64,000 nt of DNA, taken from NCBI GenBank assembly GCA_903826775.1, contig CAIKFU010000043.1, forward strand, positions 34,583 through 98,582, written 5' to 3'. The position numbers and the translations under genes were made by a program. This DNA is from an uncultured beta proteobacterium. GTDB taxonomy: Bacteria > Pseudomonadota > Gammaproteobacteria > Burkholderiales > Burkholderiaceae. The notes under the pieces are model-generated. The model did no database searches, was not told the DNA's origin, and saw nothing but the letters and a program-made list of their open reading frames with translations. Shown in pieces: positions 52,137 to 58,687 of the stretch. Each line of letters starts with the position of its first letter. Position 1 is the stretch's first letter.

Positions 52137-52655
52137 ATGAATACTCGTATTGCACCGGTGGTTCCGGGTAGCAAACCGGAGTTGGCAAAATTGGAAGAAA
52201 AGATTTTGCAAGAGCGGGGACGCATCTCGCCCTTGTATCAAATATTGCTTAATGCACCCGAAATTGCGCAGGGCTGGGAGGCATTGCTCACGGCGATTCG
52301 CAACCGCAATTCGTTGTCTCCGGCGATTCGTGAACTGATTATTTTGCGCGTCGCCATTCTCAATCGCGCGGATTACGAATTTGATGCGCACGTACCCCAT
52401 GCCTTGAAAGCCGGCGTCAGCGGTGAAAAAATAAAAGCCATTAAGGAATTAGAAATTGGGGAGCTGTTTGATCCGCAGGAAAAATTAATCCTGAAATTAA
52501 CGGACGTCATGACAACAGAGATTCAGGTTCCCGATAGTTTGTTCAACCATTTAAAACCCCTCTTTGATGACCAGAACATCTTGGAGTTGGTGGCAACGAT
52601 CTCCGCGTACAACATGGTCTCTAGATTGCTTAATGCACTGCATATAGGACATTAA
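52137..52655 (+). CDS. Carboxymuconolactone decarboxylase-family protein
   Basis: LSPAIRELIILRVAILNRADYEFDAHVPHALKAGVSGEKI. Confidence 0.87.
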   Translation: MNTRIAPVVPGSKPELAKLEEKILQERGRISPLYQILLNAPEIAQGWEALLTAIRNRNSLSPAIRELIILRVAILNRADYEFDAHVPHALKAGVSGEKIKAIKELEIGELFDPQEKLILKLTDVMTTEIQVPDSLFNHLKPLFDDQNILELVATISAYNMVSRLLNALHIGH

Positions 52656-52939: not shown

Positions 52940-53269
52940 TTATTTCACGAGAGTAACGGTACCTATATATTGATGCGGTTTATTCTTGTCTGGTGGTCCA
53001 CCCGCACCTCCTGAATTTGGTGCAGCACCCCCCTTGTTAGCAGTCGAGTTATTTGGAGAAGGCGTAATCGTATTACCTGATCCAGGCTTGCCGGAATTTG
53101 CAGTACTGCCAGTCGGCAAACCCGATTGGGGATCGCGTGGGGATACGATCTGGTTACTTTCGGCGCTTGTATTGGATGCGCCAACATTCAGAATAAGTAA
53201 GATTACGGCTAATGCTAGACTCTGAAAACTTATTCGAGTGGTTATCTTAGGAACATTATTTGAATGCAT
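52940..53269 (-). CDS. Small exported low-complexity protein ending in HQYIGTVTLVK
   Basis: N-terminal hydrophobic signal; G/P/N/S-rich mature part; RBS CCAAGGAGACGCACC before ATG; C-terminus shared with the 53895 gene. Confidence 0.7.
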   Translation of the reverse strand: MHSNNVPKITTRISFQSLALAVILLILNVGASNTSAESNQIVSPRDPQSGLPTGSTANSGKPGSGNTITPSPNNSTANKGGAAPNSGGAGGPPDKNKPHQYIGTVTLVK

Positions 53270-53328
53270 GGTGCGTCTCCTTGGTCAATGTGTATTGCAA
53301 TCAATGCATGTAAACCCACAGCACTTAT

Positions 53329-53592
53329 TTATTTTTTGTAGGTGGAAATACCTCCCGACGAACCTTGATCAGAAATCTGCTTGCCTCCATTGCCGGGGGT
53401 TGCGGGACCTTTCGCAGGAGCGGGTGCAACGGGTGCGCCCTTGTTGGCACCATTCGGATTCGCGGGATTTGGTGCTGCAATACCATTGTTTTTTCCGAGA
53501 TTTACATCAACATCTGGAATAGGCGATCCGGCAAACGCCCATCCCGCAGTCAACATGCCGACGGCAATTAACAGTAGCTTGGAAATTGTCAT
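53329..53592 (-). CDS. Small exported low-complexity protein with LGKNNGIAAPNPANPN motif
   Basis: Signal peptide MTISKLLLIAVGMLTAGWAFAG; strong RBS AAGGAGG; motif shared with the 53895 gene. Confidence 0.72.
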   Translation of the reverse strand: MTISKLLLIAVGMLTAGWAFAGSPIPDVDVNLGKNNGIAAPNPANPNGANKGAPVAPAPAKGPATPGNGGKQISDQGSSGGISTYKK

Positions 53593-53894
53593 AAAACCTC
53601 CTTGGTGATCCGGTTCAATCTATTCCCTATGAGAAGACAGTGCAATAGTGAGTAACTCTAGGCAGAAGTATTTAATTTGCCGTATTGCCCTAAATCTTCA
53701 ATACAAGATCAATATTTGATGTATATCAAATTACCAGCCTAATGTATTGGCTGATCCCTATAGATTGCGTTGTGAGTTTGAACTAGCATTATCAAAAAAT
53801 GGGATTGCTTTTGCACCATTGAATCGACCACTAAAACGCGGTAAGGCAGCATCATGGCTTTCCATCAGAACAATAGCCTTTCAAGGAGACGCAG

Positions 53895-54197
53895 ATGCAA
53901 AATCAATATTCTTCAGTTACTAGCATATATGCAGGATGGAAAAGAAGTTTGGCAATGATCGTTTCCGGACTCCTATTGACCCAGAGTTGGGTATATGCAG
54001 GAGAGCCTAATGCAGGCGCTGATTCCAAACTTGGAAAAAATAATGGGGTTGCAGCACCAAGCCCTACTAATCCCAATAATCCGCAAACCAGTTCAACCCC
54101 TAAATCAGTACAGCCTAATCAGAACCAGGTGAATGGCGCTAATCCAACGCAACCGCCTACTCATAATTACAAAGGCATCGTTACTCTGCTGAAGTAA
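53895..54197 (+). CDS. Small exported low-complexity protein with LGKNNGVAAPSPTNPN and HNYKGIVTLLK motifs
   Basis: Signal peptide; RBS TCAAGGAGACGCAG; shares motifs with both divergent neighbours. Confidence 0.75.
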   Translation: MQNQYSSVTSIYAGWKRSLAMIVSGLLLTQSWVYAGEPNAGADSKLGKNNGVAAPSPTNPNNPQTSSTPKSVQPNQNQVNGANPTQPPTHNYKGIVTLLK

Positions 54198-54237
54198 TTT
54201 GACAGTCAAATGTAATGATGTCTTCTTCATTAATTTA

Positions 54238-55473
54238 ATGGCCTCCATTTTCCAATTTCTTCTGCTTCTTATTTGTGTTGCCACTCCTCTTGCACATGTT
54301 CAAGCACAGCCTTTTTCTCCGGGCGACCCCTCCGAAGTGACGTTCGCATCCATTAACCTTGAGCAGTACCTCTCCCAGGTAAGAGAGAACAACGCGACGA
54401 TTGGCGGCAGGAGATTGGGTCTTCAGACGGCCACCGCCAACAAGACGGCCCAATCGTTACCCAACACGAGGCCGAACATCAGCTATTCGCGGGGTTCTTG
54501 GTATCAGATGTTGCCCTATACCCCGTATACCACCCCCGCATCCAATACCTATAGCCTGAGCGTAAATGTTGAAGGTTGGGGTAAGCGCGAGGCTAGGGGC
54601 GATTATGCCCAAGCCGAAATCGGGCGCAGTACTGTAGAACTGGATTCCACCACCGTCACGATTGAGACCAGTGCGTTATATGCCTATATCGATACCTTAC
54701 GCAACCGCATGCAGTGGCAAACTTACCTGAGCGCTCTTGAGAAATTAAATAACTTGCCGAGCAGCCCCAAGACCAAGACCGCCGAACAAAATCTTCTGAC
54801 TGGCAAGACTGCTGCGTTTGATGATCTGCAGTACAACGCCTTGGGCATGCTGAACTATTCGGGCGATGCGATCCGTGATTTGCCGTTTCCAAAGGGCAGG
54901 CTCGATCTTCCCTCGCAGTCCTTTCAATTGATTGCGTTGGTGGAGCAGGCCCAAAAGAGCCGAGTTGATGTGTTGTCCACCGAAGCAGCGATGCAGTCTG
55001 CGGAGAAAAATGTCGCCTTGACGCAAAAGAACCGGATGATGGATATCAGTCCGTACGTTTCCTACACCACCACCCCCCAGTATGACTCAAGCGGTTTTAC
55101 GTACACGCGCCAGACAGCCGTCTCGGCGGGGGTATCGATACCCATTCCGGTGAACAACTTTTTGCAGGACGCCGATCTCGTTCAAGCATCCAATGCGAAG
55201 ACCGAACTGGAAATGATCTATCGCGATTTAAAAGTGCGGATTCGTAACGAGGTCAGTCAGGCGCTCTTGCAATACAACGTGGCAAAAAAGCAATTGGCGC
55301 AGGCCGATTTGGCGTATTCGCAATCATCGGCCAGTCCCGATAAGGACGCGGTGCAGGCTATTGCGAACGAGAGGGATCGCATGGGCGAACTTATCGATGC
55401 CTGGACCAACCATGTCAAAGCTTTGATCAATGTCATGCGTATGAGTGGCGACTATGCCGTACCCAAAATCTAA
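54238..55473 (+). CDS. TolC-family outer-membrane efflux protein
   Basis: Signal peptide, coiled-coil repeats (VLSTEAAMQSAEKNVALTQKNRMMDISPYVSY), VSIPIPV; start approximate (a TTG start at 54199 is also possible). Confidence 0.8.
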   Translation: MASIFQFLLLLICVATPLAHVQAQPFSPGDPSEVTFASINLEQYLSQVRENNATIGGRRLGLQTATANKTAQSLPNTRPNISYSRGSWYQMLPYTPYTTPASNTYSLSVNVEGWGKREARGDYAQAEIGRSTVELDSTTVTIETSALYAYIDTLRNRMQWQTYLSALEKLNNLPSSPKTKTAEQNLLTGKTAAFDDLQYNALGMLNYSGDAIRDLPFPKGRLDLPSQSFQLIALVEQAQKSRVDVLSTEAAMQSAEKNVALTQKNRMMDISPYVSYTTTPQYDSSGFTYTRQTAVSAGVSIPIPVNNFLQDADLVQASNAKTELEMIYRDLKVRIRNEVSQALLQYNVAKKQLAQADLAYSQSSASPDKDAVQAIANERDRMGELIDAWTNHVKALINVMRMSGDYAVPKI

Positions 55474-55483
55474 AGGACAACGG

Positions 55484-56044
55484 ATGAAAATACGCCATAG
55501 ACTAATGGCTGTTGTGTTCACGCTGACTCAGCTTGCTACAAGTTCCACTGCGTTTAGTCAAGCGGCTGGCGGAGGAGGTGCAGCTGGTGGCAGTGCGGCT
55601 GGAGGTGCAGGGTCGCCAGTAGCTCCAACACCAACACCAACACCAACACCAACACCAACACCAACACCAACACCAACACCAACACCTAAGACTGCTCCTG
55701 CACCAACCAATCCTTCGCAGGCACCCGGTCCTGGCAATTCATCGGCCGCTCAGAGCCTAGGTTCTCCTTCAAATCAGGTTGCTCCGCAGAACGTCGGCTC
55801 TAATCAGGCTTGGGTGGTTCGCAATAATTTATTGAACAATGCGCCGCAATTAAATTCCACGAACAAGGCGGCCCCCAGTCTGTCGAGTTTTCGCAATGGT
55901 CTTTCCCGCACGAATCCCTACTCACCCAAAACAGAATCCGCAAATACTTCCAAAGGATTGGCTAAAGAGGCGAACCCGGCCATCAAGAGCAATACCCAAG
56001 GCCTCCTCTTTTTGAGCCCATCGCCATTGGCGCCGGAGAAGTGA
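55484..56044 (+). CDS. Exported Pro/Thr-repeat low-complexity protein
   Basis: Signal peptide MKIRHRLMAVVFTLTQLATSSTAFSQA, G/A-rich then (PT)n, ends PLAPEK. Confidence 0.65.
   Translation: MKIRHRLMAVVFTLTQLATSSTAFSQAAGGGGAAGGSAAGGAGSPVAPTPTPTPTPTPTPTPTPTPTPKTAPAPTNPSQAPGPGNSSAAQSLGSPSNQVAPQNVGSNQAWVVRNNLLNNAPQLNSTNKAAPSLSSFRNGLSRTNPYSPKTESANTSKGLAKEANPAIKSNTQGLLFLSPSPLAPEK
55625..55684 (+). repeat. Hexanucleotide tandem repeat (CCAACA)x10 encoding poly-(PT)
   Basis: Ten perfect consecutive CCAACA units counted in sequence. Confidence 0.97.
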
Positions 56045-56127: not shown

Positions 56128-56152
56128 AAGGAGAATTAATATGAAATCCAAA
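56128..56152 (+). repeat. 25-bp direct repeat (copy 1) spanning RBS and start of the 56141 gene
   Basis: AAGGAGAATTAATATGAAATCCAAA identical to 56469-56493. Confidence 0.97.
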
Positions 56153-56434
56153 AAATCTCGTACCCAAGCCAAGCGTAAATTGGCGTTCGCTATTATCGGC
56201 GCTTCACTTGGAGCAGGGATGGCCCCACTTGTTAGTAAGGCTGCAGACATTAACGTGCAGTCACCAGCTGCGCCTAACTCAAACGCCTCTAAAGGAGCAG
56301 CGCAACCCGCTGCGATTTCTTCGACTAAACCCGCTTCCCCTAAGCCTGTTCCAGTAAAAACAATGTCTTGGGCGCACGATGATGAAGCGCCTAAGCGAGC
56401 ATTGCAACAACCGGGTAATCCCAAAAATAAGTGA
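56141..56434 (+). CDS. Small exported low-complexity protein
   Basis: Signal-like N-terminus KRKLAFAIIGASLGAGMAPLVSKAADI; P/A/S/K-rich; ends NPKNK. Confidence 0.68.
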   Translation: MKSKKSRTQAKRKLAFAIIGASLGAGMAPLVSKAADINVQSPAAPNSNASKGAAQPAAISSTKPASPKPVPVKTMSWAHDDEAPKRALQQPGNPKNK

Positions 56435-56468: not shown

Positions 56469-56493
56469 AAGGAGAATTAATATGAAATCCAAA
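56469..56493 (+). repeat. 25-bp direct repeat (copy 2) spanning RBS and start of the 56482 gene
   Basis: Identical to 56128-56152. Confidence 0.97.
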
Positions 56494-56754
56494 TACACTC
56501 GTTCAACGAACGAACTGAAAACCGCACTAACTATTCTTGCTGTATTAATCGGAGTGGGAATGACTCCGGTGGCTAATTCAGATCCAACAGATCAAATATC
56601 ATTAAATTTTCAGAAGAAAGATGCGCCGGCTCCAACGCCTGGAGCAAATTCCGGGAAGGCTGCTCCTGTGGCCAATTCAGCGAACCCTAAACCTGTGCCA
56701 CCTTCTTCGTTTCCGGGTGCGCCTAGTCGAGGGAAAACTGCTAGTTCAAAATAG
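56482..56754 (+). CDS. Small exported low-complexity protein, tandem paralog of the previous gene
   Basis: Shared start region; signal-like LKTALTILAVLIGVGMTPVANS; ends TASSK. Confidence 0.68.
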   Translation: MKSKYTRSTNELKTALTILAVLIGVGMTPVANSDPTDQISLNFQKKDAPAPTPGANSGKAAPVANSANPKPVPPSSFPGAPSRGKTASSK

Positions 56755-57021: not shown

Positions 57022-58128
57022 GTGCCAAACAGAAGATCATTCATCAAGAACGTTGCAACTCTGGGAATTTTTTCGTCAATCCAGCCAACCTTTCCAGAAA
57101 ACACTCGGTTTGATTTTGCGTTCGCCGCTAAGAAAAATAGGCTTCATGTTCACTACGAATGGGGCAAGCTTGAGGAGGTCATCGTGGGCTATCCCTATTT
57201 AAGGATAGGCGGCGCAATGCCAAAAGCGGTTGGGAAATTTCTTCGCCACAATCCAAAAACCGCACCGCTAAAGCAAGCCTGGTTGGAAGCGGATTCAAAA
57301 CTGCCGCTTGAAAAGTTTGCGCCAGAATTGGCAAAACAAAATGATCAGATGAATGCTGCTATCACGATACTTCAAGGTCGAGGGATTCGGGTTCATCAAG
57401 TGGATCGAATCAACGACAGTGAGCTGGCGTTTGAGGAAAGTATTGGCTCTGCATGCTTGCAACAATTTGTTCGGGACCCCATACTGGTGATTGGCGATCG
57501 ATACATTGAACTGCCGATGCATATGCCATACCGTCGTAAAGAGCGCTTCCCCATTCGCAGAACCCTTGAGCCTCGCTTGAATGATCTCAAGGTCTCCATC
57601 ATTTCTGCACCTGAACCCTACCCGCTTCCCGAGGATGCGCAAGGCAGCTTTGGATCATCCGCATTTTTAGAAGGTGGCGATATTTTGTTGTTTGGAAAAG
57701 AGATTTATGTTGGCAATTCTGGCAATGCTTCCAATCGCAAAGGAATCACTTGGCTACAAACCCAGTTGGGAAGCAGTTATCGGGTTCATGAGGTGAGAAT
57801 GAGTAATGAGTTCTTGCATCTCGATTGCGGACTATGCACTCCAAGACCTGGGCTAGCGATCATTTGCCGCGAGGCTTTTCCCGATGGTCTGCCAGACTGT
57901 ATTAAGGGGTGGGAGCTGATTGAAGTCAATAAAGAAGATGCTGAAATGAAGATGGCTTGCAACGGACTGATTCTGGATCAAAAGAGCATTCTTATCGGCT
58001 CTGAAAATGTTCTCCTTGCCGACAAGCTGGGTAAGGCAGGCTTGAATGTTTACACCACCCCTTTTGACATGGTGACGCCATTAGGTGGCGGTTTTAGATG
58101 CTGGCATCACCCATTAATTCGTGTCTAG
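57022..58128 (+). CDS. Amidinotransferase/guanidino-modifying-superfamily protein with Tat-like signal
   Basis: NRRSFIKNVATLGIF twin-Arg motif; EEVIVGYPYLR; EGGDILLFGKEIYVG; HLDCGLCTPRPG; GGGFRCWHHPLIRV with candidate catalytic His/Cys. Confidence 0.8.
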   Translation: MPNRRSFIKNVATLGIFSSIQPTFPENTRFDFAFAAKKNRLHVHYEWGKLEEVIVGYPYLRIGGAMPKAVGKFLRHNPKTAPLKQAWLEADSKLPLEKFAPELAKQNDQMNAAITILQGRGIRVHQVDRINDSELAFEESIGSACLQQFVRDPILVIGDRYIELPMHMPYRRKERFPIRRTLEPRLNDLKVSIISAPEPYPLPEDAQGSFGSSAFLEGGDILLFGKEIYVGNSGNASNRKGITWLQTQLGSSYRVHEVRMSNEFLHLDCGLCTPRPGLAIICREAFPDGLPDCIKGWELIEVNKEDAEMKMACNGLILDQKSILIGSENVLLADKLGKAGLNVYTTPFDMVTPLGGGFRCWHHPLIRV

Positions 58129-58408: not shown

Positions 58409-58687
58409 ATGAAAATTTCTAAGCTACTGTTAATTACCGTATTTTCACTTATAAGTACAGTTGCGGTATCCGCCGTAATGGAAGCGAAAAAGGAAAGTGT
58501 AGCCGCAACACCTGAACCAAAAGCAATGACTAATCCGAATGGTGTCAAGGGAGCGCAACCGCAGTCATTTACCGCGCCTAAAGCACCAGGTGCAGATCCA
58601 GCAAAAGGAGTTGCAGGCAATACAAAACCTACGAACCAAGGGCGGGAATCAGTTCCCCTAGGTTATATGGATGGCCATGCCAAGTAA
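58409..58687 (+). CDS. Small exported low-complexity protein
   Basis: RBS AAGGAGG; signal MKISKLLLITVFSLISTVAVSA (cf. MTISKLLLIAVG at 53592); P/A/K-rich; ends GHAK. Confidence 0.68.
   Translation: MKISKLLLITVFSLISTVAVSAVMEAKKESVAATPEPKAMTNPNGVKGAQPQSFTAPKAPGADPAKGVAGNTKPTNQGRESVPLGYMDGHAK

Follow-up and report, generated by a model that had tools for sequence, protein, structure and literature searches.

Two small, divergently transcribed genes, which we term A and B, lie at 52940-53269 (minus strand) and 53895-54197 (plus strand) of the window, by which we mean the whole 64-kb stretch of DNA that was analysed. Read as open reading frames, gene A encodes a signal-peptide-bearing, low-complexity protein of 109 aa whose last 12 residues are PHQYIGTVTLVK (product end in longer form, NKPHQYIGTVTLVK), and gene B encodes an exported protein of 100 aa that closes on THNYKGIVTLLK (longer form, PPTHNYKGIVTLLK). 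Both products begin with a hydrophobic signal-like segment and continue into a middle rich in Pro, Asn, Gly and Ser; throughout, "exported" refers to such hydrophobic signal-like N-termini rather than to the output of a dedicated signal-peptide predictor. The single-sequence AlphaFold model of protein B suggests disorder beyond the signal helix, which is weak evidence, and searches of the gene A product against Pfam and NCBIfam yielded zero families above cut-off. The original prediction had described two divergent small exported proteins with a common C-terminal motif and differing low-complexity middles, and our analysis confirmed both points: the two reading frames are present, seven of the 12 end residues are identical, and the middles differ, with no clear relation beyond composition. 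When compared over their full length, the two proteins exhibited marginal similarity outside the ends, and 9 of 300 shuffles scored as well.

Anchoring the comparison at the C-terminus, we observed that this degree of identity was equalled in one of 20,000 composition-preserving shuffles. Of all stop-terminated frames in the window, A and B alone end in Y.G.VTL.K, and a degenerate DNA pattern for this end followed by a stop codon, run over the whole 2.56-Mb genome, returned two exact matches, namely A and B, and none at one mismatch. The kept residues comprise H, Y, G, V, L and K at alternate positions, plus T, an arrangement compatible with a single face of a beta strand. The last 36 nt of the two genes are 75% identical, and the tail-end DNA falls inside a 38-nt inverted-repeat match. 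Most differences between the tails are synonymous, with an NG86 dN of 0.26 versus a dS of 1.01 over the last 12 codons, a count of only 12. Because dN is lower than dS and the kept residues alternate, the tail looks selected, albeit from a small sample, and we regard selection on it as reasonably probable.

The resemblance between A and B is not confined to their tails. An 11-nt leader, AAGGAGACGCA, stands directly 5' of the start codon of gene A (53272-53282, minus strand) and, in identical form, of gene B (53883-53893, plus strand); these are its two exact matches in the window, a result obtained in 0 of 100 shuffles. Since the pair has this leader in common as well, the shared tail is most simply put down to local duplication; A and B are very probably paralogues, and one of them appears to be an old, inverted local copy of the other. 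Between them lies gene C (53329-53592, minus strand), which encodes an 87-aa exported protein ending in GISTYKK rather than the motif. The middle of C is paralogous to B, as judged by a 102-nt inverted repeat of 71% identity and a tblastn-type match (E 6.5e-10; E-values for low-complexity proteins run optimistic, and shuffles were applied where possible), so that C is a clear paralogue of B without most of the motif. Further along the window, gene D (58409-58687, plus strand) encodes a small exported protein whose ribosome-binding site and signal segment are related to those of C, the 5' ends of the two genes forming a 77-nt inverted repeat of 74% identity; a direct search of the genome with gene D recovered no further paralogue. 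Two more small exported low-complexity proteins are encoded by gene E (56141-56434, plus strand) and gene F (56482-56754, plus strand), which are paralogous at their 5' ends through a 40-nt direct repeat (88%), with a protein score exceeding 297 of 300 shuffles. Given this pattern of repeats among A to F, the cluster seems to have arisen by local duplication of genes for exported proteins, with different copies retaining different parts.

Directly downstream of gene B on the plus strand is a gene for a TolC-fold outer-membrane factor, which may start at a TTG codon one base past the B stop codon (54199-55473) or at an ATG (54238-55473). Its product matches Pfam OEP (PF02321; E 1.3e-15, 58 bits), and its AlphaFold model (mean pLDDT 84.6) has its best PDB matches in E. 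coli TolC, ST50, OprM and related channels, so that both the OEP domain and the TolC fold place it among the TolC-type outer-membrane factors. NCBIfam gave only a weak match, to IhpA at 24 of 650 bits. An adaptor and an inner-membrane pump are usual in efflux operons but are not needed for every TolC. The channel protein shares its predicted fold and OEP domain with outer-membrane factors of the TolC/CzcC type, but differs in its surroundings, as no adaptor, RND, ABC or pump gene was recognised beside it among the listed and partly Pfam-scanned neighbours in the window and in relatives. When 399 genomes of the family, spanning 25 genera, were searched with a profile, strong channel matches came from a single genus, which we call Polynucleobacter because the named records matching the channel family are Polynucleobacter or Burkholderiaceae/betaproteobacterial assemblies. 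The record search also supplied one channel copy, L081, beyond those collected from the genus genomes. No members were found on plasmids or in viral contigs. Two relatives have a channel gene that is interrupted or matches piecewise (L060 7125-8350; G151:C1:619996-621198).

We then considered the setting of the channel gene across 21 loci, the window included. At least one low-complexity exported reading frame adjoins the channel gene in all 21, and the density of such signal-bearing frames is 0.44 per kb up to 2.5 kb from it versus 0.053 per kb beyond, an 8-fold enrichment that was obtained with simple reading-frame and composition rules, the same loci supplying both the near and the far counts. 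In clade-2 loci an alpha/beta-hydrolase gene precedes the channel gene, and a DUF4118 membrane protein is encoded nearby. Beside the channel gene of one relative (L058 8627-12853), tandem exported paralogues have near-identical signal segments and diverged mature parts. To the left of the cluster, four relatives (L109, L110, L111 and L112) carry a catabolic operon that continues, past the orthologue of window 52137-52655, with a protein of about 197 aa that is absent here; since the relatives' operon continues with a different gene, the cluster is accessory at this position. Two other genes of the window deserve mention: 57022-58128 encodes an arginine/agmatine-deiminase-like protein (PF02274) that starts MPNRRSFIKN, a Tat-like signal, and is thus possibly an exported member, and 58841-59398 matches only positions 113-284 of the LIP secretory lipase profile and is probably a truncated gene. 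Literature searches for this cluster returned nothing specific.

The first outlook on these tails was to be refuted if no further small exported proteins of relatives carried the motif, and on this point a search of 186 genomes of the genus went against it. The exact pattern had only two matches outside this genome, one in a 44-aa reading frame without the low-complexity architecture and the other reading VTF rather than VTL, where no fitting frame of at least 30 aa was recovered. Protein B, searched against 101 genomes, likewise had no convincing relative outside the window; those weak matches that were inspected proved to be unrelated genes or other frames of them. A looser tail resemblance in one relative (L081 4555-4836, KNLKGDVTIS) is suggestive only. 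Within the data examined, YxGxVTLxK is therefore confined to the lineage of this genome; a single pair in a single genome underlies its conservation, and it is not a general sorting signal of the genus.

Conserved tails of another kind were found on the protein whose gene immediately follows that of the channel. In the window this is gene G (55484-56044, plus strand), an exported low-complexity protein with the tail KSNTQGLLFLSPSPLAPEK; within it, at 55625-55686, ten perfect copies of CCAACA encode a Thr-Pro run in which a change of length would stay in frame. The protein at the same position in 14 relatives has a low-complexity, diverging and weakly alignable body and a conserved end, P-[TS]-D-x-x-[NG]-[YF]-x-x-x-[SA]-P-T with close variants (PTDxxNYxxxSPT), such that conservation averages 0.54 per column in the final block against 0.20-0.39 over the rest; several of the 14 are mutually close and do not count as independent cases. 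Clade-1 copies, gene G among them, have KSxxQG[LM]xF in common instead. The proposal that C-terminal conservation marks a functional signal thus survives in part: the A/B tail looks selectively kept and conserved tails recur on the post-channel protein, while the motif itself does not recur. The general idea therefore holds at the level of the cluster, but with lineage-specific tails.

Our best explanation for the whole, which we favour by a modest degree of confidence, is an inverted local duplication in which the leader and about 12 end codons were kept and the tail would dock to an envelope partner. An exported-protein gene would have been duplicated locally in inverted orientation, its middles diverging as the leader and the last 12 or so codons were retained. 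The tail would be held by purifying selection as a short beta-strand-like element that ends an otherwise disordered, Sec-exported chain, with the middle acting as a spacer free to drift, and its likeliest role would be docking to, or recognition by, a partner in the envelope. Owing to its constant linkage, the TolC-like protein is the natural candidate, and the small proteins could be its passengers or accessory subunits; we put this particular partnership forward tentatively, as one possibility.

A simpler account is that the common ends are what has not yet diverged between paralogues and that the tail has no special function. Such residual similarity would readily accommodate a leader that A and B share in addition to the tail, a gene C in which loss of the tail is seen to be possible, and a motif present in no relative. 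It fits less well with the codons themselves, four of the seven kept ones differing at the third position with the residue retained (dS about 1), or with the conservation of post-channel tails across species, and we consider it somewhat unlikely.

Another reading casts B as an upstream regulator of the CutF/CzcI type, in which the C-terminus of a nascent exported chain slows translation and opens an RNA stem so that the downstream outer-membrane factor is translated. CutF-like proteins have been filtered as shorter than 150 aa, with a signal peptide, PP in the last 15 residues and a same-strand gene within 1 kb downstream, and PF02321 genes are a neighbour class described for them (PMC9973294). 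Protein B passes every one of these filters and resembles this group in small size, signal, Pro-richness and position just upstream of an OEP gene. A possible RNA stem-loop at 54172-54224 (plus strand) adds to the likeness, its 13-bp helix (54172-54184 with 54212-54224) connecting the B tail codons to the region in which the TolC-like gene starts; its z of -3.3 (0 of 200 shuffles) is to be discounted, as this was one of about eight stretches folded. However, B has no Cys, one His and no His-rich site, and so lacks the Cys/His metal-binding motif of these proteins, and PP is unsurprising in a Pro-rich chain. Gene A has this tail too, yet is followed by no gene on its own strand, and no such stem occurs at gene A, in L057 or in L081. 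We accordingly regard a regulator of this type as quite improbable here. The stem was also rejected as a common cause of the A/B similarity, as gene A has none.

Protection from proteolysis offers a further explanation, in which a Lys or polar C-terminus would shield disordered chains in the periplasm from Prc/Tsp and similar tail-specific proteases, enzymes that prefer nonpolar C-termini (PMC7481392). Lys is indeed the last residue of each of the cluster's seven small exported proteins, but background reading frames, too, end in Lys more often than in any other residue (23%), A and B are hydrophobic just ahead of it, and the specific motif would be left unexplained, making this account improbable as well. 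Chance or convergence in low-complexity sequence, which might be suspected where many reading frames are compared by eye, is scarcely credible given the shuffle result, the uniqueness of the tail in the genome and the common leader. With C-terminal sorting tags such as PEP-CTERM/exosortase and MYXO-CTERM, the A/B tails have in common a short conserved C-terminus on divergent exported proteins; they differ in lacking a transmembrane helix, an Arg cluster and an invariant Cys, and in occurring as one pair per genome rather than by the dozen. A PEP-CTERM-type tag, defined by signature motif, transmembrane helix and basic end, was rejected, the tail being some 12 residues of predicted beta-like character with no transmembrane segment.

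Collectively, these observations describe a patchily distributed cluster for which the family libraries used name nothing beyond a generic OEP match. Returning to the docking-tail interpretation, its most extended form is a Polynucleobacter-specific system for export or surface display, built on an orphan TolC-like channel whose clients would be Sec-exported, disordered, fast-diverging small proteins, each docking through a short C-terminal tail particular to its lineage (YxGxVTLxK in this genome, PTDxxNYxxxSPT in relatives); we offer this as speculation and think it doubtful as it stands. Should the association prove functional, a TolC-like channel in a neighbourhood without a pump, together with disordered Sec-exported proteins bearing conserved tails, would represent a new use of the TolC fold in freshwater bacteria.
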